This document shows positions 30,070 through 56,738 of a stretch of 64,000 bases of DNA, piece after piece. Position numbers and translations under genes: made by a program. Positions within the stretch are counted from its first letter, which is position 1. Each line of letters opens with the position of its first letter. Source of the stretch: Hyaloraphidium curvatum (taxonomy: Eukaryota; Monoblepharomycota; Hyaloraphidiomycetes; Hyaloraphidiales; Hyaloraphidiaceae); assembly GCA_025558095.1 (NCBI GenBank), contig JAIVFI010000016.1, forward strand, positions 558,001 through 622,000, given 5' to 3'. The notes beneath the pieces are model-generated. The model was not told where the DNA came from. It did not search any database and saw only the letters and a program-made list of their open reading frames with translations.

Positions 30070-31862
30070 ATGATCCGCCGCGCCATCGTAGCCGCGCTCG
30101 CCCTGCTTTGCGCGCTGGTCCTGGCCGCCGCGCCGGCCCGCGTTGCCTCCATCGCCGTCGCCCGCCGCGCCGCCGACGGCGCACTCGGCGCCGCCGCTGA
30201 AGACTTGTACGCCGGCGCTGCCGCCGACGAAGGGCACGTCCTGGCCGCACGCCAGGCCAAGAAGAGTGGGTGCCGCCGCGCTGCGGTGTCCCTTGGTCGT
30301 GCCCGGTGCTGACGTTCCCAATCACCTCCCGCCAGCGTCCACCAAGCGCAAGGCGACGACCAAGAAGGTGATCAAGAAGACGACGACCAAGAAAGTGGTT
30401 AGGAAGACGACCACCAAGCGGAAGGCTACGACCAAGAAGGGCAGCGCCGCCGGGAAAGTGACCACCAAGAAGATCATCAGGACCACTGCTCGCAAGGTCG
30501 CGCAGGTGTGTGGGAGGCAAGGACGGTGCGGCTCCGGGATCGCTCACGCTCGACTGCTTCTCGTCCGATCGAGCAGACCACTGCGCCGCCGGCCCCGCCT
30601 CCGCCGGTGATCACCACATCCCCGCCCGCCCCGCCTCCGCCGGCGCCGACTACCGCCGCTCCCCCGCCCGCGACCACCGCTCCCCCGCCTCCGCCTCCCG
30701 CGACCACGGCGCCTCCCCCGCCGCCGCCCACCAGCACCGCCACACGCACGCGCAGGGTCCAGGTCACGCAATCGGTGAGCGAATCTCCTTTTCCGGTCCA
30801 CATGCAGCAAGCTGACGGCGATCACTCACCCTGCCGCGCAGTACTTCCCCCTAGGCCCCACTGGCACGGTCGCCTACTGCGCACCCAGCAGCGTGTCCGT
30901 CTCCCGCGGTGCGGTGAACACCTACGATGTCGTTGTGAACACTCCCTCCGCCGTCAACCTAGACGACTTCTTCGTGACCATGGACGCCGACATCCAGGGC
31001 GCCAACCTGCTCGTTGTCACCCTTCTTCATCCAACGAAACCCTACGTCGATCTGTTCAAGAACGCAAACTCGCAGACGTGTCTGACCCCCAGATCCGAGC
31101 GCACCTTCTCCGACTCGGCACCCCAGACTTCGGCCGCGAACTGTGCCGCGACCACGCTCAAGCCCGTCACGAACTCGCTTGCCGCGATAAAAAGCGGCTT
31201 TGGGGGCCTCCAGCTCTACCGGTTCGTGGTGAGCATGCCGTCACCCGGCGGCGACCCGACACAAGGCAACGGCACCATCTACAGCCTCTGCATGAGGGCG
31301 GTGTACCCAGCGGTAAGCCAGATCGCGCATGGGCCACGTGCATTCGATCCTGACGACGGACTCCGATCTCCAGGTTACGCCCCCAACGCCCGCCGCCCCG
31401 ACCAGCCAGTGCCTCGACCTGAGCGCGCCCGACAAGGGCGTGATCGACAAGAAGGACGCCGAAGTCCGCTTCCCGCTCACCATCTCGGGCGTGCCCGGCG
31501 CCATCACCAGCTTGATCATCACGCTCCAGTTCTACTCGCCCGACATGCGGAACATCGAGACCTACGTGTACTCCGCATCCTCCGACACCAAGTCCTCCTA
31601 CCCGATCCCCATCACCAATGCCACCGTGGCCAATTGCGCGGCGAGCAACCCCAAATGGACCTTCCGTGACGACGGGTTTTACAAGTACGACGCCTGCGAC
31701 AACACGGACCTCTACCCGGCCTCCGCGCTGGCCGAGCTGCGCGGGTTCCCCGTGAGCGACACGTGGTACATCTCGGCGATAGACTCGAACAAGAACTTCG
31801 GGACCTCTATCGCAAAGGTGAACGAGCTGTGCCTGTACTTCAACGGTGCGACGCCGGCCTAG
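30070..31862 (+). CDS. secreted Lys/Thr- and Pro-rich protein with two P-domain-like modules
   Basis: Exons 30070-30265, 30336-30505, 30577-30774, 30842-31312 and 31374-31862 (introns 61-71 nt) give 507 residues. A signal peptide (IVAALALLCALVLAAAPAR) is followed by a very basic repeat of KKxTTTKK type (about residues 66-122), then a Pro/Thr stalk (TTAPPPPPPATTAPPP). Two beta-rich modules of about 130-160 residues follow. The second ends FRDDGFYKYDAC, ALAELRGFPVSDTWYISAID and VNELCLYF, resembling the P domain of proprotein convertases; the first, ending near YSLCMRAVYPA, looks like a weaker copy. No protease domain is present. It is probably an extracellular or wall-attached adhesive protein. 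The same module ends both giant proteins next door. Confidence 0.65.
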
Positions 31863-32116: not shown

Positions 32117-35100
32117 TCACTCGGTCTTGAGCCACAAACACCACTCATAGAACCGGAATGTCCTCGGAGGATCCGTCATCGCCGGGCGGAATGCGAGCGT
32201 CCAGGTGCCCCCCGGCGCCTTGCCGCGGTAAATGCGGAAAGGCTCCCGCGGCTTGACCGTGTTGGACTCGCAGGTGCCGTTCGCAACGTCGCCGGGGTAG
32301 ACGCTCGTGTCGTCGCGGAAGGTGAAGTAGACCCTGCGCTCGCTAAAGTCGCACGACTGCGCTTGGGAGCTCATCAGGTAGTTTGCTGTGCCGTCGGGGT
32401 GGGCGAGGGATGCGTCCGTGCCGTACTCGTGCCTGTACATGAGGCTGACAGACACGTTCGCAATGGTCCCGCCGGGGGGCACGGTGACGTTGCGCAGGTA
32501 CACGACCTCCGCGCCCGAAGACAGCGTGCCTGGTCCTTCGAAGTAGGTCCGGTCGCAATAGGAGGTCATGCCGGGCGCGACGTCGGGGGTCTCGGTGGTG
32601 ACGGTCCGCTGCGTGCACGAGCGAAGCATCAGAAGTTCCGAACAAGACAGTGGCATGGAAGCACCCACCGATGTCGTCGAAGTGCTCGTGCGACTCGCGG
32701 GCATTCTCGTGCTGGAAGCCGACGTGCTGGTGGAAGCGCCTGGCTGCGCGATCGTCCCACCCTCCTGCGGGACGCAACTTCCATCCAGGAGCTCGAGCGT
32801 CGTCATGGCTAGCGCGTACCCCGCCGTGCGCTCCATCGTGATCGAATCGTCTGGCGAGGTGACGGGCCTGTTGGGCGCCGTGGTTCCTGGCCTGAAGATG
32901 CGAAAGCTGAAGCTCGTGTCGGTTGGAGCAAAGGGCACCATGGCGCCGTTGACGAGGGCGTCGGGCGCCGGGCTGGCGTCCACGTCCGCGCGGCCGGCCA
33001 AGGCGGAGTTGATGGCCTCGATGGCGTCGTACGCCTGGCGCGCGGTCGAGAACGGGAGGGAGACGTTGGCGGCGGAACCAAAGTAGTCGTTGAAGGCAGC
33101 CCGCCCGTCGGCGCCGCCCAAGTTCTGCCGGAAGATGACGTTGTACGACTTGCAGCCGATCACGACGTTGTTCAGGACGGATTTAAACGTCGCAGTCTGG
33201 GATCGGATCCACGCTTTAGTGCTACCCAAACTGTGCGCGCTCCGATCGAAACTCACCCCGGAACTGCACGCCAACCCGCTCGACACAACCGGAGCCGGCG
33301 GCGGGCAGGGTCCCTGGGTTATGGTCGGTCCCAGGGTTATGGAGCGGCTGGTCGTCCTCGTAAAGGACGTCGTGGAAGTGAACGAGGTGCTCGAGGTTAA
33401 GGTGGTCGCCGTCCTCGTCGTCGCCGTGCGGCTGGTGCTTGTCGGCGTGCGCGTGGTGGTGCTGCTGGTTGCGGTGCGGGAGCTGCTCGTGGCCGTGAGG
33501 GTGGAGCTGGTAGCTGTCAATGACCTCGTGGCCGTAATGGTAGAGCTCGTGGCCGGGCGGCTGCTTGTGGTCGCGGTCTGCGTCGAAGAAGCCCGTGGGA
33601 GGGTTGTCGACGAAGCCGGCCGCGGCACTGTTGTGGACGATGCGGCTGGCAGCGCAGTGCTGGTCACCGTTCTGCTAGTGCTGCTCGCCGTCCTGCTCGC
33701 CGTTATGCTGGTGCTGCTCGCTGCTACGGTGCTGCTACTTGCTGTCCGGCTGCCAGTGCGCGCCGGCTGCGTCGACGTCGGGAGCACAGCAGTCGTCGAG
33801 CTCGGCCTCGGGGCCGTCATAGTGCCCGAGGCCGACCTTGTACTGCTCGACGCAGTGGCCGTGCCCGAAGCCGACCTTGTGCTGCTCGACACAGTGGCCG
33901 TCATCGAAGCGGTCGGGGACGCGGTCCGCGTGGCCGTCCGCGTTTCGGTCGGCGAGGCTGTCCGAGTGCCCGTGCGCGTGGCTGATGCGGTCGCCGACGC
34001 CGTCTGGGTTGCCGTTGGCGTCCTGGTCGTCGAGGTCGACGGCGTCCTCCTCCAAGCCTACACCGGTGCACGAAACATGTCAGACATGCATGCCGACATC
34101 ATCGCCATCCGAAGCACCCACCGTGGTCTGCCTCGCCGGTCCAAGCCCCAGATTGACCGCGTAGAACGTCCGCTCCTCGTTCTCCGGCCCCGCGAGCCCG
34201 TAAAGCCTCCCGTCCGCGCCCTGCAGCACCCCGCTCAGCGGCAGCACGATTCCGTCGCGGTCCGCCATGGAATAGTTGGCGAATCCCGCCGCCCACCCCC
34301 CGTCACCGGACGAGGGGAAGCGGAAGATCTCGGCCGCCGTGGTGCCGTACAGGTCGCCGCCGATTTGGATCAGCGGCCCGCGGGGCGTGCAACCCCCGAC
34401 ACCAGATGGCCCGCGGAAGACGAAGAGCTGCTCGGAGCCGACGTAGCGCCGCCATCGGTACGCAGAGCCGCAGTTCTCCGGGCCGCCCTCGGAAAGCAGC
34501 CCTGGGCAGAAGGGAAAGGGTGAGCCATGCGATCGCAAAGGCTCCCCGTTCGGTCACCCACCAAACACGTCCGTCCCCACAGCCAACGGCGGATCCAACG
34601 CCATGCTCCCGAACCCGAACTGCGACTCAGACCAACCCCCGTCAGACCACAGCGCGAGCAAGGTCCCGTTGAGCGCCGTCCTCCCGTACAGCGTGGTCAC
34701 GTACACCGTGTCGTTGCCGCCGATCGACACGCCGCCGACGGGGCGGTAGCCCGTACTCGGCCTCGCGAGCTGGTAGAACACTTCCGGGGCAGGCGATCCG
34801 GGGCGGAGGCGGAATATCGCGCCGTCGTTCACCGACCCGCCCTGGTTCAGCGCACCATAGAGCGTGCCGTCCGAGCCCACTGCGAGCCTGCCCATGGGGT
34901 CTGAGCCGGAGGGCAGGGTGGCGATTGCGCGGACGGTGCCGGCGGCGTCGAGCGCCCAGATCTTGGGCGGAGAAGGCGTGCCTTCCTCGCCGTTGCGCCC
35001 GCTGGTGGTGCCGTAGAAGCAGTTGCACTGGCTCGAGTAGACGGGCACGGTCTCGGGGAAGCACCCCGCCCCGTCGTCCTGGAAAAGGTGTACCACGGAG

Positions 35101-37097
35101 AACGCGCCCGACGGGGTGATCGAGAACAGGGTGCCGCACTCGTTAGCTGTCGTCAGTCCTGTGAAGCCCCGCGCGACGCCGAGGAAGTTGCCGTCGGGCG
35201 CCTCGGCGATGCCGGTGACGGTGCCGAGGTCGGCGCTGATGCGGAACAGCACCGTCGGGCTGGCGGCGGGGAAGGTGGCACGAGTGGCCGTCCGCGAGGC
35301 GCTGCGGGTGGCCGTCCGCGTAGCCGTGCGGGAGGTGCTCGTCGCGGTGCGGGTACTCGTCGTGCTTTGGCGCAGCCCGACGTCGAGGGCAAAGAGCGTC
35401 CCCGTCGCCCCCGTCAGCGAGCCCGAGGTGACCCCGTAGAGCAGCCCGTCGTCACCCAGCACCAGCCCGTCCACGGGCTGCCCGCCAAACAGCTCCGGCT
35501 CGCCGTTGCCCGCGGGATAACCCTCGTACCAGGAAAAGGTGAGCACTATCTCGGCCCCCGTGCTCCCGTCCGCCTTGACGCGCATGATCCTGCCGCTCGA
35601 GTAGCTCGTCGAAGTGCCGCCGTAGTAGAGCCAGCCCCCGGCCTCGACCATCCCAGTCGTCCCGCCGCGGTCGCCCTGCATGTGCGCCAGCACGGCGAGC
35701 TCCCCCGAAGGGCGCAGGATCCACGCGGTGCCCCGGTTGTTTGCCCCGCCCTGGCGGCACGTGCCGACAACCGACCCGTCTGCCAGCCGCAGCACGTAGT
35801 CGTACGCCCTGACCCCCGTGGACGCGTTGAAATGCGCCAGCGTGGACAGCAGCCCGGCGGGCGAGATGCGGAAGACAGTGCCCTCCCCGAACCGCCCACC
35901 CTTCGTCGTCGCGCCGTACATCAGCCCGTCCGCGCCGAGGGTGAGCCCGCTGTAGGGCTCGCTGCCCCTCTCCGCCGCGTTGGGCCCGCCGAAGTGGAAA
36001 AGGATGGTCAGGGTGCCGTCCTGCGCGGCGCGGAACACGGTGCCGCCGTCGTAGAGGCCACTGATCGTTGTGGTCCCGTAAATGTTGCCGTCTGGCCCGC
36101 GGACGACGGATCCCATGGGCGAGGAGCCGGTGCTGACGTTGAAGCCCACGAACCCGGAGATGGATCCCGTCGCGGGGCTGTAGCGCGCCACGGTCCCCAG
36201 GCCCGATGGCCCGCCCGACTGCGTGGGGATGTAGTAGGCGCCATCCGCACCCGGCACGGGCCTCCCCTGCGGGTATCCGCCCGTGTTGCGGTCGATGAAA
36301 TAAGCGACGATCCGCGGGCTGTCCCCGGGGATGTACCGCCACACGGCGCCGCAGTCGCCGCACCCGGGGTTAACGTCGTAGTCGCCGCCGGCGTACGAGA
36401 CGCCGTAAATCGTGCCATTGTCGGCGAGCGCAATGCCCCGCGCCCCGTTCAGGTTGTAGTCCAGCTTGGCCAATAGGGTCGGCGTCGCGCGGAACGTCGG
36501 GGTGGCGGTGGTCGAAGTCCGCGTGATTGTGCGCGACGTGGAGGTGCGGGAACGTGTGGTGGAAGCGGACCGGGTCGTGCCGGTCAGCGAGGTCGACGAG
36601 AGGGTTGACGGCGTGCGGGTCGCCGACGCCGTGGGCGAGGTGGACGTGAGCGACGAAGAGGTGGGGGAGGCGGTCGAAGAGGACGCCGTCCTCGACGCCG
36701 AGCGGGTCGTTGAAGCAGTCAACGAGGTCCGCGACGTGGTCGACGAAGTCCGCAAAAGCGTGATCGAAGAAGAAGTCGGCGTCGAAGACGAGAGCGTCCG
36801 CGAGGCCGAGAGGGAGTTGGTCGCGGAGCGCGACGAGGAAGAGGGCGTCGAAGGCGAAAGTGTCCGCGACGCCGAGCGGGTCGCCGACCGCGTGGCCGAC
36901 GACGACGAGCACCCTCCAAAAACCGTCACCGTGCGCTCCGCGGTCACCGTGACCGTAACCGTGCGGAACTCGGTTGCCGCGCAGGTGCCGGTCGGGCCCG
37001 CCTGCCGCGGCTCGATCGCGGCGCCGCCCGCCCCGCCGCACGCGGCCAGCGCGAGCAGCAGCCAGATCGACAGCATCGCCAGCGCCGTGCGGCCCAT
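32117..37097 (-). CDS. giant secreted chimera A: GloVer-type repeats, S/T/R tracts, P-domain-like end
   Basis: Exons 34562-37097, 34122-34501, 33257-34057, 32669-33196 and 32117-32608 (introns 57-64 nt, the last two being stop-free multiples of three) give 1578 residues. In order: signal peptide (MGRTALAMLSIWLLLALAAC); Ser/Thr/Arg tract (about 65-205); GloVer-like repeats (GLGTVARYSPATGSISG, DGGTVFRAAQDGTLTILFHF, LGADGLMYGATTKGG); a short S/T/R hinge; a second repeat block into exon 2; an S/T/R tract of about 250 residues; an unrecognised domain (FKSVLNNVVIGCKSYNVIF onward); an S/T spacer; and a P-domain-like end (VSLMYRHEYGTDASLAHPDG, FRDDTS, GGTWTLAF, FYEWCLWL). It is likely heavily O-glycosylated and extracellular. 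It is the inverted paralogue of 38178-43453. Confidence 0.7.
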
Positions 37098-38177
37098 GAC
37101 CCGGGATGGGCGGCGAAAACGGCCCGCCGGGCGGTTCGGGAGGTGCGGCAACCCCGTCAGCGTCAGCCGCCCCAGCCGCCACTCCGCGACCCCGCGCACT
37201 CGGATCGGGCAAAGTTGGTTTCTCACGGTGATGAGCTTACAAGGCGAAAGGTCGTCCGCCTCATTGGTGAGCTGGAGAAGCCGATGCCCAAACGCTCAAA
37301 TGAGCGCGACACCGCTTCCGCCGGCTCCTGGTCCCACAAATCACTTCTACTCTCACTCGCCCATACCAAACCTCCTCGTTGATCACCCTGTCCTACACCA
37401 TCTTAGTCCATCAAATGAACGCGAGAGAAGCTGGATGCCCTCCGGCATAGGAAGCCGAGCCTGCTTGACGCATTCGCGACGGAGCTCACCCCTCTTGACT
37501 TGGACTTTTCTCCGCAATGCGTTTTGCTACTGCCTACTCTAAATGAGGTGGGTGGCGCTTGCGGCGGGATGGCGCGGGTGCGGGCGAGCTCATGGATTGT
37601 TCGGATGGTTTGGCTCATGAAGGCGAACTTCGAGGCGGTTCAGGGGGCCACGAGGCTACAGATTCTAGTGGCGTGGCGAGAGAGGGATCTTACGGGGCGA
37701 AGCCATGGGACTAGAGAGCGCGAAAAGGAACTTCGCCGCGATCACCAAGGTCAACGAAAGGTTTGCCGTCCTTGAACGGCGCTTCACCTAAACTAGGTAC
37801 TGGAGAACGTCGGGAGCTGGCATTGGCCAAAACGGCCGTGTCATAGCCGGTCTTTTATTTGACTTTGGAAGGGCGCGAGGCGTCAGGAAATCGCGCCAAC
37901 GCCGATGTCTCCAGCCCGGGGGGACCCATTGTCAGGGACGCCGGGACCCATCGCGGGGCTGTAGGTGCGCGGAGCCGGCCCACCGCCCCATCCGTCCGCC
38001 CTTGGCTCCATCCAATTTCTCCGCGACAGGAGCACCCCTCCAGGCACGCCCCCTCGGTCCGATCCGAGTGGGCGGCGGGTCGGCGGTGGTGGCGGCTGGG
38101 TTGGCTGACGCCGCTTTGTCGTGCGCCCTTGCGCCGGTCCGACCGCCCTGCGACGTTCCGGGCGCCCATCCCGGCCG
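37098..38177. other. spacer between the two head-to-head giant genes
   Basis: 1.08 kb that must hold both divergent promoters. The outer 100 bp or so next to each ATG are related to each other in inverted orientation (for example cgcccatcccgg just before each start); the middle is unique. A small frame at 37705-37791 (MGLESAKRNFAAITKVNERF...) looks protein-like but is too short to call a gene. Confidence 0.5.
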
Positions 38178-41100
38178 ATGGGCCGCGCGGCGCTCGCGAT
38201 GCTGCCGATCTGGCTGCTGCTCGCGCTGGCCGCGTGCGGCGGGGCGGCCGGCGCCGCGATCGAGCCGCGGCAGGCGGCGGCGACGACGTGCCCCGCGACC
38301 GCGTTCCGCACGGTCACGGTCACCGTGACGGCGGCGGAGAGGACGGTGACGGTTTTTGGAGGGTGCTCGTCGTCGTCAGCAACCGCGTCGTGGACGTCGT
38401 CGACCCGCTCGGCGTCGCGCACGCCCTCTTCGCGGACACCCTCTTCTACGTCCCTATCCGCGACCACATCTCTCTCGCGGTCGCGGACGGCGTCGTTCTC
38501 CACGACGTTTTCCTCTTCGCTCTCAGCCTTGCGGACGCCGTCGTCGTCGACCCCCTCATCCTCCTCTTTCACCTCTTCATCTCGCAAGTCCACCTCGCCC
38601 ACGGCGTCGGCGACCCGCACTTGGTCAACCCTTTCGTCGACCTCATTGACTGGCAGGCCGACCACCAGCTCGTTCACGGCTTCGCCGAGCCGCACGGCGA
38701 CGAGCTCAACTCGGACGGCTTCATCGACCACCTCACGTTCCCGCACCTCGTCGTCCCGTACAGTTACGCGCACTGCGACCACTGCAACCCCGATGTTCCA
38801 CGCGACGCCGACGCTCCTCGCCAAGCTGGACTACTCGCTCACGGGCGCGCAAGGCATCGCGCTCGCCGACAATGGCACAATCTACGGCGTGTCGTATGCC
38901 GGTGGCGACTACGAACTCGGCCCCGGGTGTGGCGACTGCGGAGTAGTGTGGCGTTACGTCCCGGGTGACACCGCGCGGATAGCCGCATTCTTCAACGACC
39001 GCGACACGGGCGGATACCCGCAGGGGCGGCCCGTGCCTGGCTCGGATGGCGCCTACTACATCCCCACGCAGTCAGGCGGCAGATCGGGTCTGGGGACCGT
39101 GGCGCGCTACAGCCCCGCGACGGGATCCATCTCCGGGTTCGTGAGCTTCAACGTCAGCACCGGCGCCTCACCCATGGGATCCGTCGTCCGCGGGCCGGAC
39201 GGCAACATGTATGGCACCACCTCGTTCGGCGGCCTCTACGACGGCGGCAGCGTGTTCCGCGCCGCGCAGGACGGCACCCTGACTATCCTTTTTCACTTTG
39301 GGGGCCCCAACGTGGCGGAACGGGGCGGCGAGCCCTACGGCGGGCTTACCCTCGGCGCGGACGGGCTGATGTACGGTACGACCTACAAGGGGGGCCGGTT
39401 CGACGGCGGCACCCTGTTCCGCATCTCCCCCGCGGGCCTGCTCTCCACCCTGGCGCACTTCAACGCATCCACGGGGCACAGGCCGGTGAACTACCCGCTC
39501 AGACTGGCCGACGGGTCCGTCGTCGGCACGTGCCGCCAGGGCGGGGCAAACAACCGGGGCACCGCGTGGATCCTGCGCCCGTCGGGGGAGCTCGCCGTGC
39601 TGGCGCACATGCAGGGCGACCGCGGCGGGACGACCGGGATGGTCGAGGCCGGGGGCTGGCTCTACTACGGCGGCACTTCGACGAGCTACTCGAGCGGCAG
39701 GATCATGCGCGTCAAGGCGGACGGGAGCACGGGGGCCGAGATAGTGCTCACGTTTTCCTGGTACGAGGGTTATCCCGCGGGCAACGGCGAGCCGGAGCTG
39801 TTTGGCGGGCAGCCCGTGGACGGGCTGGTGCTGGGTGACGACGGGCTGCTCTACGGGGTCACCTCGGGCTCGCTGACGGGGGCGACGGGGACGCTCTTTG
39901 CCCTCGACGTCGGGCTGCGCCAGAGCACGAGCACCTCCCGCACGTCGGCCACCCGCACGGCGTCGACCAGCGTGGCGCCGACCGCCACAAAGTCAATCAC
40001 CGCGACTCAATCCACCGCATCGAGGACGGCCTCGAGGTCGCAAACCGCAACCGTGCCGACGAGCTCGCGGTCGGCCACGGCCACCCGCCGATCATCCACG
40101 GCCGCGGCGCCGGCGATGCCGTCGACCACCGCGCGCTCCACGACCAGCAGATCCGCCAGCCGCAGCCCGTCGACCACCTCCACCCGATCGTCGAGCACCT
40201 CCCGCACCCGGACCACCACGACGACCCCGCCAATCATCGCCCGCGTGCTGCACCGCTTCGACTGGACCGCTGGCAGCCCCATCGGCATCGCCCAGGCACC
40301 CGACGGGAGCTTCAGGGGGACCAGCTGGGTGGGAGGGCAGGACAGCTGGGGCACCTTCTTTTCGCTGTCTGCGGCGGGAGCGTACAGCACCCTGTTCACG
40401 TTCGACGGGACGACCAGCAACCTCGTCTACGCGTCGGGCCCGCCCTCCTATTCCCCGCAGTGCCAGTGCTTCTACGGCACCACCGAGGGCTCCGAGTTCT
40501 ACATCGGCCCGGACGGCGAGACGAGCTTCTCCGCCGACGGCACTCTGTACTCCGTCGACCTGGCCGGTACCGTATCGGTTCTCGCTCGGTTCTCCCCAAG
40601 GGACGAGCGGCCCAGCGGCGCGCTGGCGATCGGTCCCAACGGCACCGTGTACGGGACACTGTACACCCCCGCGGGGGACGGCGGCCAGGTGGGGAAGGTG
40701 TACAGGTACGACCCTTCCTCCGGCACCGTTTCGACCGTGGTCGACCTCGCCGCGGCCGGGCTGGGCGCGTATCCGGACGGGGTGACCCTGGGCCCGGACG
40801 GCAGGCTGTACGGCGCGGTGGCGATGCTGGACGACTTCGAGGCGGCGGGGTACCTGTACAGCGTGGGCACGGACGGGTCGGGGCTGCTGTCGGGGGCGGT
40901 CGAGCGCAACGTCGGGAAGCCGGTGCTGGGCGCGCATGGGTACGCGTACGGTGGGTGCATCCCGGGCGCAACCTGCCACTGCCGTCGCTGACGCCAGCGC
41001 AGCGATTACGTTGGAGTTCAGAAACTCCTTGTGCTTTGGCAGGATCGTCCGTTGGCAGCCCGGGTCGCCGGTCACGACGCTGTTCACGTTCCCGTCGGAC

Positions 41101-43453
41101 GGCTCCTACGGTTGCAACCCCTCGGCGCCCCTCCTGCGCGTCGGCGACGACTTCTTCGGGACCACGCAGGCCAACATCTTTCGCCTGCGGCCGCCTTACA
41201 CCGAGGTCGAGGTGGTCGTTTGGGCTGGCGGCTCGGCTTTGGAGGCTCCCTTCGGCGGAAGCATGGAGCTCCTGCTGCCCTCCGAGGGCGGCCTCGTGCA
41301 AGCATCCGACGGGCGCATCTTCGGCGTGTCCCGGGCGCCCTGGTGGGCGTCGTCTGAATTCTACGGCGCCTTCTTCGCGATCGACCTCCGCCTGATTCCC
41401 CCCCCCCCACCGACGGCACGCCCGAACTCCGTGGGTGGCCGCGCCGCCTCGTGCGCATTCCGACGCTGATTCGATCCCCACGCAGACGTTCACACAGAGC
41501 ACAAAGACGGCCTCGCGGACACCTTCGCCCCCTGCTTCGGTGACGGCGACTTCGTCCACCAGTTCACGGTCCGTTTCGCGTACTCCGACGACAACGCGGC
41601 CGCGCTCGACGACTGCTGTGCCGCTGACGTCGACGCAACTGGCGGGTACGAGCAGCAGAACGGCGAGCAGCAGCAGCAGGACGGCAAGCAGCGGCACCCG
41701 GACGGCAAGCAGTAGCACCCGGACGGCAAGCAGTAGCACCCGGACGGCAACCAGCAGTACCCAAAAGGGAAGCAGTAGCATCCAGACGGCAAGCAGCAGT
41801 ATCCGGACGGCAAACAGTAGTACCCAAAAGGTAACCAGCAGCAGCAGGACGGCGAGCAGGACGGCCACCACCACTAGCAGAACGGCGACCAGCACTGTGC
41901 TGCCGGCCGCATCGTCCACAACAGTGCGGCGGGCCGCGTCGACAACAGTCGCGGGGCCTTCGTCGACGAACTCCCCGCGGGCTTCGTCGACAAAGACCGC
42001 GCCCACCAGCAGTCGCACAGCAACGAGATCCTCCATCACGGCCACGAGGTCATTGACAGCTTCCAGCTCGACTCTCTCTGCCACAAGCAGCTCCCGCACC
42101 GCAACCAGTAGCACCACCACGCGCACGCCGACGAGCACCAGCCGCACGCCGACGACGAGGACGGCGACCACCTTGACGTCGAGCACCTCGTTCACTTCCA
42201 CGACATCCTTTACGAAGACGACCAGCCGCACCATAACTCTGGGACCGACTATAACCCAGGGACCCTGCCCACCGCCGGCTCCAGTTGTGTCGAGCGGTTT
42301 GGCGTGCAATTCGGGGGTGAGTTTCGAGAGAATCGCGCACCGTTTGCGTGGAACTAAGGCGATCCGATCCCAGACGGCCACATTCAAGTCCGTCCTGAAC
42401 AACGTCGTCATCGGCTGCAAGTCGTACAACGTCATCTTCCGGCAGAACTTGGGCGGCGCCGACGGGCGGGCTGCCTTCAACGACTACTTTGGTTCCTCCG
42501 CCAACGTCTCCCTCCCTTTCTCGACCGCGCGCCAGGCGTACGACGCCATCGAGGCCATCAATTCCGCCTTGGCCGGCCGCGCGGACGTGGACGCTAGCCC
42601 GGCGCCCGACGCCCTCGTCAACGGCGCCATGGTGCCCTTTGCTCCGACCGACACGAGCTTCAGCTTCCGCATCTTCAGGCCCGGGACCACGGCGCCCAAC
42701 AGGCCCGTCACCTCGCCGGACGACTCCATTAAAATGGAGCGGACGACGGGGTACGCGCTAGCCATGACGACGTTCGAGCTCCTGGATGGGAGCTGCGTCC
42801 CGCAGGAGGGTGGGACGATCGCGCAGCCAGGCGGTTCCACCACCACGTCGGCTTCCAGCACGAGAGTGCCCGCGAGTCGCACGAGCACTTCGACGACATC
42901 GGTGGGTGCTTCCATGCCACTGTCTTGTTCGGAACGTCTGACGCTTCGCTCGTGCACGCAGCGGACCATGACCACCCAGACGCCGAACGTCGCACCAGGC
43001 ATGCGCTCGTACTGCGACCGGACCTACTTCGAAGGACCGGGCACGCTGTCCTCGGGCGAGGGGACTCTTTACCTCCGCAATGTCACCGTTCCTCCCGGCG
43101 GGACAGTCGCCAACGTTTCCGTCAGCCTCACGTACTCGCACGAGTACGGCGCGGAAGCGACCCTCTCCCACCCCGATGGCACTGGCAACCGGGTCCTGAC
43201 CCTCCAAGGATTGTCGTGCAATCTCGGCGACCAGGTGACGCAGTTCACCTTCCGGGACGACGCGGCGTCCTATCCAGGCGACATTGAGGGCGGCACCTGC
43301 GAGTCCAAGACGGTCAAGCCCTGGGATCCCTTTAGGGTCTATCGCGGGAAGGGGGCGGCGGGGACCTGGACGCTCGCGTTCCGCCCGTCGAATACCTACC
43401 CGCCTCAGGTGTTCCGGTTCTACGAGTGGTGCCTGTGGCTCTATACCGAATAA
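38178..43453 (+). CDS. giant secreted chimera B: GloVer-type repeats, S/T/R tracts, P-domain-like end
   Basis: Exons 38178-40950, 41003-41430, 41486-42316, 42374-42901 and 42962-43453 (introns 52-60 nt) give 1683 residues. The signal peptide (MGRAALAMLPIWLLLALAAC) and domain order equal those of gene A: S/T/R tract, first GloVer-type repeat block (GTVARYSPATGSISGF, DGGSVFRAAQDGTLTILF), S/T/R hinge, a second and clearly different repeat block (GGQVGKVYRYDPSSGTVS, LGPDGRLYGAV), a long SSTRTA-type tract, the same unrecognised domain, and the P-domain-like end (VSLTYSHEYGAEATLSHPDG, GTWTLAF, FYEWCLWL). GloVer repeats (TIGR03803) are known mainly from bacteria. It is likely a surface or matrix protein; no catalytic residues were recognised. 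Confidence 0.7.
41651..41880 (+). repeat. 21-bp coding minisatellite in the S/T/R tract
   Basis: Tandem copies of a roughly 21-bp unit (agcagtagcacccggacggca and variants with cccaaaag or atccgg) encode repeated SSTRTAS. The copies near 41700-41750 are almost identical, and divergence grows outward, as expected from replication slippage or unequal exchange. Confidence 0.75.
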
Positions 43454-43572
43454 GGAGGAATAGACAATTCTCGCATACGTTATCACTCGACCACAAGAAG
43501 GGCTGGCCTCCATTGGGTAAGCTTCGCCTTCGCCGTCCATTCAAGCAATCCCTCCCTGCTCGCGGCATGCAG

Positions 43573-53682: not shown

Positions 53683-53859
53683 CGGGTTGGGGTAGATCTG
53701 CTAGAGCTCTGAGAGACATAGAGCGATAGATGAAGTAGAGCTGTCCGATCGAAGCCATGATGGGAGGAGACGCCGAGGACGGGCGGTTCGGGCGGCAGAA
53801 GGGGGTTTCGGCGGCGGAGGCGGGGTCTGGCGGCCGCCACCGACACCTCACTCCCCAAA

Positions 53860-56738
53860 ATGACTGGCAAGGACAGGGACGACGACGCGGCGTCGGAGGA
53901 CGGCGCTGCGAAGGGCAAGCGCAAGGTCGCCTGCGTGCCTTGTGCCCAGCGGCGGAGGCGGTGCGACGCGGGGAAGCCCGCGTGCGACCGCTGCATCGAG
54001 ACGGGGGATGGGCCGGACTGCCACTATCCCGAGGGCGGCGGCCCGAAGCGCAAGCGGCTGCGGCGCGGGCTGTCGTGTGCGAGCTGCCATTCGGGGAAGA
54101 AGTCGTGCGACGGCAATTCGCCGTGCGGGCGCTGCGTGGAACGGGGCATCGCCGCCGCGTGCCGGCCGCGCGACGAGGACGCGGTTTCCGAACGGCCGGT
54201 TCGCGCGCAGCGCCCCGTCGCGCCGAGGAGCGAGGCCGGCGACCCCGGCTCGCCGTGGGACGGCAGGCAGCCCGGGTATGCCCTGCCGATCCCGCAGCCC
54301 CCGATGGCGGCCCCTCTGCCGGCAACCTACCCGCCTCCCTGGCTGCCTTTCGACGCTCCAATGATGGCAGGCGGATTTCAGGGCATGCAGGGACCGGTCG
54401 GGGCACACGGTATCGTGCCGAACGCGCTCGACAGGCTGCCGGCCCTGGCGCCGCCGGGGATCCCAGCCTTTGCCCCGCAGGCGGCCTGGACGCCGGCGTT
54501 CGCGGCGTTCCCGGACTCCATGGGCTCCATGGGCTTCCCAGGTATCATGGGTTCCATGTCGCCGTCGCCAATGCCGATGTCGGGCCTGTCTGCGCTGGCC
54601 TTTGCTGCCGCCCCGGAGCGGCTTCCGGCCCCGCCGTCGCCGATCCTGCAGCTGCCCGCCGAATATGCCGCGACCCTCTATCCCACCCTGCCTCCCGGCC
54701 TCCTCCCTCCTCCGCTCGTGCTCTTCCGCGCGGTCGACAACTTCTTCCAATATGGCGCGCAGAACCTGCTGCACCGCGCGACCTTCGACGCCCGCGTCTG
54801 CCGGGGCGAGTCTGCGGCCCGCGCCGCCTACCGCGCACGGTTCCGCACGCGACTGGTGGCCCTGTCCAGGGGCACTGCGCGTCCCGCGGGGAAGCTGGTG
54901 CCGGAGCTGCGCCCGAGCGGAGCGCTGGAGGAGAACATGGACGCCGCGCTGCTCGTCTCGGTCCTCTGGGGCGGGGCCAAGCTCGGGGCGCGGCTCGCAT
55001 CCGAGGGCAAGCGGGATGCCGACACCGGCATGGCGCCGGCGGCCATCGACGCGCTCGAGGGGTGGCTGCTGGACGAGATCGACGAGGTGTCGGCGTGGTT
55101 CGCGGCCGTGGGCGGGTCCACCGGGTCCGGGCTGGAAGTGCTTTGGCAGGAGATTTCGAACGGCTGGGGCAGCAGCTTTGCGGCCTCCACCCCGAACGCG
55201 GTGCAAAACAGCCCGCTGGGGTCGCCCAAGTCGGGCACGGCGGGCTCGCTGTCGCCGCCGCCCGCGCCATTCTCCTCGGCCGACCTGCCCCTTGCCGACC
55301 GCGAGGCGCACGAGCTCTTCATGTCGAGCTACCACCGCGACATCTTTGACGCCGTCATCGCCCTCTTCCACACTGGCTGGACCTACCAGTTCATGGGCAA
55401 CGGAAACGAATTCCGCAACGTGCTCGGGACCATTGCCCTGCGCGTCCTGCCCATGTGCCGGTTAGAGGAATGGTTTGCCAGGGGGCCGGACGACCGGCAC
55501 GATCCGCCGCCGGTGTGGATCCGCGCCGAGGAGAAGCTCAGGCTGGTTGCGCTCCTGCGGACGGGCATGTCGCTGTACGTGGAGCTCCGGAGCGGGCCCC
55601 AGTACGTCTCGAGCCCCGACGTCGTGCCGGCCGGGGACTTCGACTACGTGGTGCTCATCGTCGCCAGCACGCGCCGCCTGGCCAACCTGGAAATGCCCTG
55701 CAACGACCTCACGTTCGACAACCTGCCTTCGGCCGTCTGCGCTTTCCCCGGGCGGGATCCGCCGGTGCCCGTCACCTACGCGGGGCACATCGACATCGGC
55801 GTCGGGCGTCGCCTGACTCACGGCGACGCGTCGTGGTGGATGGAGATGACCCTCGGCTCGCCCCAGCGCCATTCGGCCCTCGCGTCCTCCTTCGGCCGCG
55901 TGCTCGCGCTGGGCCCCTACACCTTCCTCACCCTGGTAGGCGAGCTCATGTTCCGGCACATTGCGCTGCGCAACTGGCTCCACGGCCACTCCCTCGAGCC
56001 GCACGACCTCGACCGCGATCGCACCGACGTGCCCCCGGCCGTCCTGGCGGAAGCACGCGCCCGCCGCGCCGCCTTCCTCGCCCTGCTCTCGGACGCCGAA
56101 TCGCACCTCCCCTCCCCGCTCCGCGAGGCCTACGAGTCCGGCGACGGCAACGCCGTGCGCGCGCTGGCCGCGCGGCACTACGGCGAGCGGCACTGCGGCC
56201 GCCTCACCGCCTACCTCGCCTGGATCCACGTGCTCCACATCCTCGTGCGCAGCCCGGGCGACGTCGCGGGCTCCTTGGTACACCCGGACGAGCGGTGGCT
56301 CCGCGGGCCCGAGTTCCTCGAGTGCTCCGCGCACGCCATCGCCGTGTCGAGGCTGACGAAAGCCATCATGGAGGTGGCCGAGGACTCGGTCAGGGTGCCG
56401 CAGCTGCTGCCCTTTGCCGTGCTCCGCGCGGGGTTCGTCCACGCGATGGTGCTGCGCAGGCTGGGGGCGGGAGGGGGGCCGGTGGGACCCGAGGGGGACG
56501 AGGTGGTCAAGAGGCTGGTGGAGAGCACGGCGGCGTGCCTGGACGCGCTCAAGATCGGCGGGTCGGGGTGGTGGGTTGCCCGGTGCGGCGCGTTTCGTGC
56601 TCTCTCCTAACCTCGCTGGCGTTGGACAGGTCCTACACGAAGCAGGCGTACCGGATCTTTGAGAAGATCGTGCTACACGGGCTCGTTCCGACGGAGGAAG
56701 ATCTGGAGGCGCTCCGGGCGGGGCGGACGGTCCGGTGA
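53860..56738 (+). CDS. transcription factor with two tandem Zn2Cys6 clusters
   Basis: Exons 53860-56570 and 56630-56738 (59-nt intron with CTCCTAACC branch-like site) give 939 residues. Two binuclear zinc clusters follow each other: Cys25, 28, 35, 42, 45, 54 and Cys73, 76, 83, 89, 92, 101. The second has the standard C-x2-C-x6-C-x5-C-x2-C-x8-C spacing; the first has x6 in the middle loop. A basic linker (GPKRKRLRRG) separates them. A Pro/Met-rich disordered region (about 120-260) precedes a large helical domain comparable to the regulatory middle domain of GAL4-type factors. The end after the splice reads WSYTKQAYRIFEKIVLHGLV. Its targets are unknown. Confidence 0.8.

Follow-up and report, generated by a model that had tools for sequence, protein, structure and literature searches.

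Head-to-head genes for predicted secreted proteins with GloVer propellers, cationic stalks and orphan P-like domains in the fungus Hyaloraphidium curvatum

Positions 32117-43453 of a 64,000-nucleotide stretch of the Hyaloraphidium curvatum genome hold two genes in a divergent (head-to-head) arrangement with five predicted exons apiece. The whole stretch, denoted the window, covers bases 558001-622000 of contig JAIVFI010000016.1 (C16; 741,507 bases) from an assembly of 31.9 Mb in 55 contigs, and coordinates refer to it unless another contig is named. Both gene models were drawn by eye, from sequence alone. The right gene, on the forward strand, is composed of phase-consistent exons at 38178-40950, 41003-41430, 41486-42316, 42374-42901, and 42962-43453 and gives 1683 amino acids (aa); the left gene, on the reverse strand, is composed of equally phase-consistent exons at 37097-34562, 34501-34122, 34057-33257, 33196-32669, and 32608-32117 and gives 1578 aa. 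The original prediction had set the outer limits at 32117 and 43453, which coincide exactly with the two stop codons; its size of 1.6-1.7k residues compares with the 1683 and 1578 aa of the models. Its five-exon structure is supported by the predicted splicing, as the phases are consistent at all four introns in both arms. These introns measure 52-64 nucleotides (nt), follow the GT..AG rule and start with GTGGGT or GTGAGT, and exon 4 (528 nt) and exon 5 (492 nt) have equal lengths in the two arms. The only stop in the right frame is the terminal one, and an alternative donor/acceptor pair is available for intron A (acceptor before 41022). The genes are separated by a divergent intergenic region of 1080 base pairs (bp; 37098..38177), a putative shared promoter in the original prediction, in which no promoter was found by a scan with a bacterial promoter model, a model unsuited to a fungal host.

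The two predicted proteins share one order of parts. A signal-like N-terminus is followed by stalk 1, a first GloVer propeller, stalk 2, a second propeller, a long stalk 3, a domain without known relatives (domain X), a short stalk, and a C-terminal P-like domain. The repeat blocks, described before as GloVer-type, were recovered with the family model TIGR03803 (curated cut-off 44 bits), to which the exon 1 frames match with 207 bits on the left (E 1.6e-62) and 215 bits on the right (E 4.4e-65), while the exon 2 frames alone fall under the cut-off (27.7 and 18.5 bits). A profile of the single unit, built from 49 units of seven bacterial relatives and run leniently, resolved the blocks further: tandem units of about 50 residues are present in all four, and the earlier description can be sharpened to two blocks per protein with six to seven units each. 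Right propeller 1 (38805..39923, forward strand) and left propeller 1 (35367..36485, reverse strand) contain seven units, of which one scores below zero in either case. In right propeller 2 (40233..41388, forward strand; split by intron A at 40951-41002) six units were found, and in left propeller 2 (34149..35231, reverse strand; split by intron A at 34561-34502) seven, two of them scoring below zero. Six to seven units per block fit one propeller per block. A propeller fold is suggested by profile comparison: a seven-member profile of the fungal blocks matches the designed Cake beta-propellers (E 1.7e-11 for Cake10), which are described as eight- and nine-bladed (PMC8458387); a single fungal copy, that on contig C17, gave nothing above chance (best E 0.041). 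In each of the four propellers acidic residues outnumber Lys and Arg.

The propellers are embedded in Ser/Thr/Arg-rich tracts, whose presence had been correctly anticipated and which proved to be cationic and nearly devoid of acidic residues. In the right protein (forward strand) these stalks comprise aa 60-213 (38355..38816), aa 578-693 (39909..40256), and aa 1054-1322 (41389..42250, split by intron B at 41431-41485). Their left counterparts (reverse strand) comprise aa 60-212 (36462..36920), aa 572-622 (35232..35384), and aa 964-1217 (33323..34148, split by intron B at 34121-34058). When the stalks are delimited by the domain borders, the 575 between-domain residues on the right include 57 Arg and 7 Lys, with Asp and Glu entirely absent, and the 487 on the left include 50 Arg, no Lys and 3 Asp/Glu. 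Delimitation by Ser plus Thr content alone yields 69 Lys/Arg and 4 Asp/Glu among 617 residues (right) and 55 and 6 among 533 (left); a composition criterion that favors Arg and Lys yields 68 and 0 among 580 and 53 and 4 among 500, respectively. The cationic character stands under the recounts by domain limits and by Ser plus Thr content. Low-complexity regions of fungi are reported to be depleted in Arg and Lys (PMC11878562), and the stalks therefore run counter to the fungal trend.

Domain X is encoded in exon 4 of both genes (right, 42374..42814, forward strand; left, 32759..33196, reverse strand). It had been announced as an unrecognized conserved domain, of which the first attribute is retained: no Pfam family was found at E<=1 on six pieces of both genes, nor at E<=10 for the right domain X; matches to solved structures remained at chance level (best, phycocyanin, E 0.17), and the profiles of P-like, kexin P and GloVer domains gave no significant match. 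The second attribute needs correction, as in the fungus' own genome the domain was found in just these two genes. Three other matches in the genome (E 0.385, 0.58, and 1.87) were rejected, being at chance level and in stretches that look unrelated. Between the two arms, exon 4 shows a ratio of amino-acid to silent changes per site (dN/dS) of 0.10 at a silent divergence (dS) of 0.17, and the adjacent intron D is identical at 58 of 60 positions. Silent divergence is thus low around exon 4, and the conservation of domain X partly reflects youth.

The C-terminal domains (right, 42998..43450, forward strand; left, 32120..32572, reverse strand) are assigned to an orphan P-like type through intermediates and profiles. 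Direct evidence for PF01483 (gathering score 21 bits) was not obtained: Pfam gave no match of this family to the terminal domain at E<=1 in either arm or at E<=10 in the right one, and a genome scan with PF01483, which gave 22 matches at E<=1 (15 of them above the cut-off), picked up the terminal domain of neither arm. The proposed relation to the P domain thus fails as a direct match and holds by way of intermediates. With the right terminal domain as query, a search at E<=10 recovered the counterpart in the left arm and 13 further places in the genome, the strongest of which reached 2.6e-10; nine of these 13 coincide with places above the PF01483 cut-off. From 21 extracted domains, one on C7 was dropped owing to a stop and those on C12 and C1b were left out, resulting in a full profile of 18; omission of the kexins and C26 gave a profile of 13 orphan domains, which scores the window domains with 61-64 bits, whereas none of 2000 shuffles exceeded 8.4. 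This profile is partly circular, since some members were found with the window domain itself, and it was for this reason rebuilt from six domains listed by PF01483 and not by the window query, two of them above the PF01483 cut-off. The independent profile still scores 35.6 bits on the left and 28.1 bits on the right (best of 2000 shuffles, 6.8). An alignment profile of the P-like domains moreover matches residues 450-505 of an 'extracellular serine protease' (3hjr/3wqb; E 2.8e-4), a segment which we take to be the P domain of that protease.

The P-like domain comes without a protease, as had been claimed: the genome has 15 matches to PF00082 (peptidase S8), none of them inside the window, and among the matches listed S8 and PF01483 occur together at C17, C21, and C33 only. 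In viral contigs three stretches fit patterns of the right P-like domain, and none was confirmed. Adjoining the left arm tail-to-tail, a secreted-looking neighbor (30071-31862, forward strand) carries Lys/Thr- and Pro-rich tracts followed by a tandem of two orphan P-like domains, to which the own-genome profile assigns E 3e-7 and 6e-10 and the independent profile 2e-4 and 2.5e-11.

By inspection, the first 27 residues of both proteins resemble a signal peptide (right, 38178..38258, forward strand; left, 37097-37017, reverse strand), and secretion, as initially assumed, is accordingly plausible for both. Both of these segments contain the motif LAAC. It resembles a bacterial lipobox, presumably by chance in a fungus. 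No hydrophobic tail of the glycosylphosphatidylinositol (GPI) type was seen by eye at either C-terminus, both of which end within the P-like domain (WCLWLYTE and WCLWLKTE). The surface location named in the original prediction is thus putative.

The likeness of the two copies is uneven. The proteins are 90% identical in propeller 1 and 31% identical in propeller 2. On the nucleotide level, blastn aligns 38059-39943 (82%) and 41803-43465 (85%) with the opposite arm, in addition to a weaker piece of 223 bases at 41534-41756; the likeness continues into the intergenic region for 119 and 111 bp before the start codons, and for 12 and 11 bp beyond the stops. The layout of an inverted duplication is confirmed: between 31000 and 45000 there are 13 pairs of inverted repeats measuring 40 nt or more, the longest spanning 1216 nt (89%) and 870 nt (90%). 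An even likeness between the arms is not found, for blastn at 1e-5 aligns nothing in propeller 2. Introns A and B also align poorly between the arms. Amino-acid changes per site are fewer than silent ones in all five exons (one-sided Fisher P of 1e-10, 0.046, 2e-8, 2e-8, and 1e-7 for exons 1 to 5), and dN/dS over the whole left-right alignment is 0.50. Differences at fourfold degenerate sites are unevenly distributed over 33 windows of the alignment (chi-squared P 1e-10): right residues 451-600 show 4 differences at 91 sites, and the adjoining windows 14 at 29 and 7 at 14. The longest unchanged run of fourfold sites measures 42 sites, a length reached in 1 of 5000 permutations. A run of 170 bases that is exactly shared (39753..39922 on the forward strand, equal to left 35537-35368) ends at the edge of the propeller and is a candidate for a recent gene-conversion tract. 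Taken together, the pattern would be explained if the inverted copies undergo gene conversion with each other and the middle propeller has diverged or been exchanged.

GloVer repeats occur on five contigs of this genome (C16, C17, C26, C32, and C35; at least 47 matches at E<=0.001) and in none of 14 control genomes. On C26, a second pair is arranged head-to-head (L073, 2503-6762, reverse strand; L074, 3088-6848, forward strand), its two copies being separated by further long open frames. In these genes P-like domains come first, and one GloVer block of seven units follows past a predicted intron. The original prediction knew of no described protein with its parts ordered as in the window pair. 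The combination as such is not unique, since the genes of the C26 pair are predicted to unite P-like and GloVer domains as well, yet in reverse order. A gene on C35 (L075, 3495-6311, reverse strand) encodes two propellers of seven units each in a single frame, 91% alike and separated by a Ser/Thr/Arg stalk, and one on C32 (L076, 2224-3000, reverse strand) encodes GloVer repeats followed by an unrecognized stretch of about 260 residues. The end of the latter was considered as a glycosidase barrel, a reading dropped because matches stayed at chance level (Pfam E 0.076 or none; solved structures E 0.23). As the same genome holds these other arrangements, the order at 32117-43453 is best regarded as one of several shufflings. 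The gene on C17 (L077, 2868-4118, forward strand) encodes a compact GloVer protein in one open frame with its best matches in bacteria; as a query at E<=1e-5 it retrieves just itself in its own genome and matches in all seven bacterial genomes, and it possibly represents a separate acquisition.

Relatives of the fungal GloVer proteins were present in 7/7 bacterial genomes. Their scan employed a four-member GloVer alignment, a seven-member one being too diverse, and confirmed seven loci out of 72 pattern matches, with 32-38% identity in the best segment. Since the relatives found are bacterial, a bacterial origin of fungal GloVer appears likely, the comparison being one with bacterial collections that hold no other eukaryotes. 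Elsewhere in the window, a frame at 53761-56607 carries a fungal Zn2Cys6 domain (E 4.3e-12).

We assign a probability of about one half to the reading that the pair represents two working paralogues of a secreted modular family, held at the wall by charge and by the P-like domain and differing in the ligands of propeller 2. Their role would most likely be that of wall-associated binding proteins. Both would be secreted, with stalks that may be O-glycosylated, and the charge of the stalks together with the P-like domain would hold them in an acidic cell wall or matrix; held in this way, the slightly acidic propellers would protrude and serve as heads that bind ligands. Gene conversion across the inverted pair, together with purifying selection, may maintain the likeness of propeller 1, domain X and their surroundings. 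With second propellers that are so dissimilar, the left and right proteins probably bind different ligands. In a wider and more tentative scenario, against which the odds lean, the fungus took bacterial GloVer propellers into intron-bearing secreted proteins with cationic stalks and diversified them in inverted pairs, in which conversion keeps the anchor parts alike and the middle propeller serves as a variable recognition cassette.

Several results weigh against these paralogues being wall-held, propeller-headed proteins homogenized by conversion. Compared with solved structures, the right P-like domain alone gives nothing above chance (best E 0.098) and one orphan domain alone nothing at E<=0.1, and a two-sequence kexin P profile fails on the window domains, its 5.8 bits equaling the best shuffle. 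A four-member propeller profile reaches Cake at a mere E 0.007. Known kinds of wall-anchoring signal are not seen in either protein. Gene conversion is deduced from two copies, and selection or cassette exchange could contribute to what is observed.

Among the rival explanations, an old duplication whose copies are kept alike by selection alone, with a fast-evolving propeller 2 and no gene conversion, seems doubtful. It would account for the excess of silent over amino-acid changes in every exon and for the decay of the flanks and of introns A and B; the drop to 4/91 fourfold differences between neighbors of 14/29 and 7/14, and the near identity of intron D beside poorly alignable introns A and B, speak against it. 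The whole-alignment dN/dS of 0.50 and the poorly kept propeller 2 could also indicate that one arm is a decaying pseudogene, which is highly improbable given that the spliced frames of 1578 and 1683 codons both remain open, that the splice sites are kept in both, and that exon 4 has a dN/dS of 0.10, although a pairwise ratio cannot say which arm is constrained.

The remaining alternatives concern the nature of the products. Propellers and P domains are known from enzymes, several propeller hydrolases included, and the propeller profile weakly matches a periplasmic gluconolactonase (E 0.0036). The proteins might hence be secreted enzymes or enzyme-bearing scaffolds with a catalytic propeller or domain X, in which the P-like domain aids folding as in kexins. 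Such a function is unlikely in view of the Pfam searches, which recognized no family in the six pieces or in the right domain X, and of the peptidase S8 matches, all 15 of which lie outside the window. That the repeat part and the P-like part belong to separate, abutting genes, leaving no chimeric protein, is conceivable inasmuch as joining them takes four predicted introns. This is very unlikely, since the phases fit at every intron of both arms, inspection of the frames of exons 3-5 revealed no Met with a signal peptide ahead of the tract, and in the C26 pair domains of both types are predicted to be fused over an intron, in the other order.

What is new here is the mosaic of left and right copies, with propeller 1 set against propeller 2, and the cationic nature of the stalks. 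A literature search under the names of the GloVer repeat found nothing, so its function looks undescribed in the literature searched; in papers listed on P domains that lack a catalytic domain, and on a transfer of propellers to fungi, titles and the beginnings of abstracts mentioned no such proteins. Fungal GloVer repeats on five contigs, partly fused to protease-less P-like domains and carried on polycationic stalks, offer a eukaryotic test setting, suited to questions on what propellers bind, on what orphan P domains do, and on the conversion-driven divergence of paired genes.

The window pair can be compared with four known or related systems. With the bacterial GloVer proteins of TIGR03803 ('choice-of-anchor tandem repeat'; Verrucomicrobia, Acidobacteriaceae, Segetibacter) it has the unit of about 50 residues in common, and it differs from them in its predicted introns, cationic stalks, and X and P-like domains; P-like profiles, judged on two of three outputs, found nothing significant in the seven bacterial proteins (best E 0.2). 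Proprotein convertases of the kexin/furin type possess the P domain (PF01483) to which the terminal domain is linked via the orphan domains and 3hjr/3wqb, whereas their subtilase catalytic domain was not found in the window proteins. The pair on C26 shares the head-to-head arrangement, a TVTVT-type N-terminal segment, P-like domains, a Ser/Thr/Arg tract, and a seven-unit GloVer block, and it deviates in that P-like domains come first, a single propeller is present, domain X was not found there, and open frames lie between the copies. Fungal wall adhesins of the FLO/ALS type carry their heads on long Ser/Thr-rich stalks, and their paralogues swap sequence. The window pair would resemble them in Ser/Thr-rich stalks that bear heads and in the exchange of sequence between paralogues; unlike them, it shows no such ligand domain by Pfam and no GPI-type tail by eye, and its stalks are rich in Arg.

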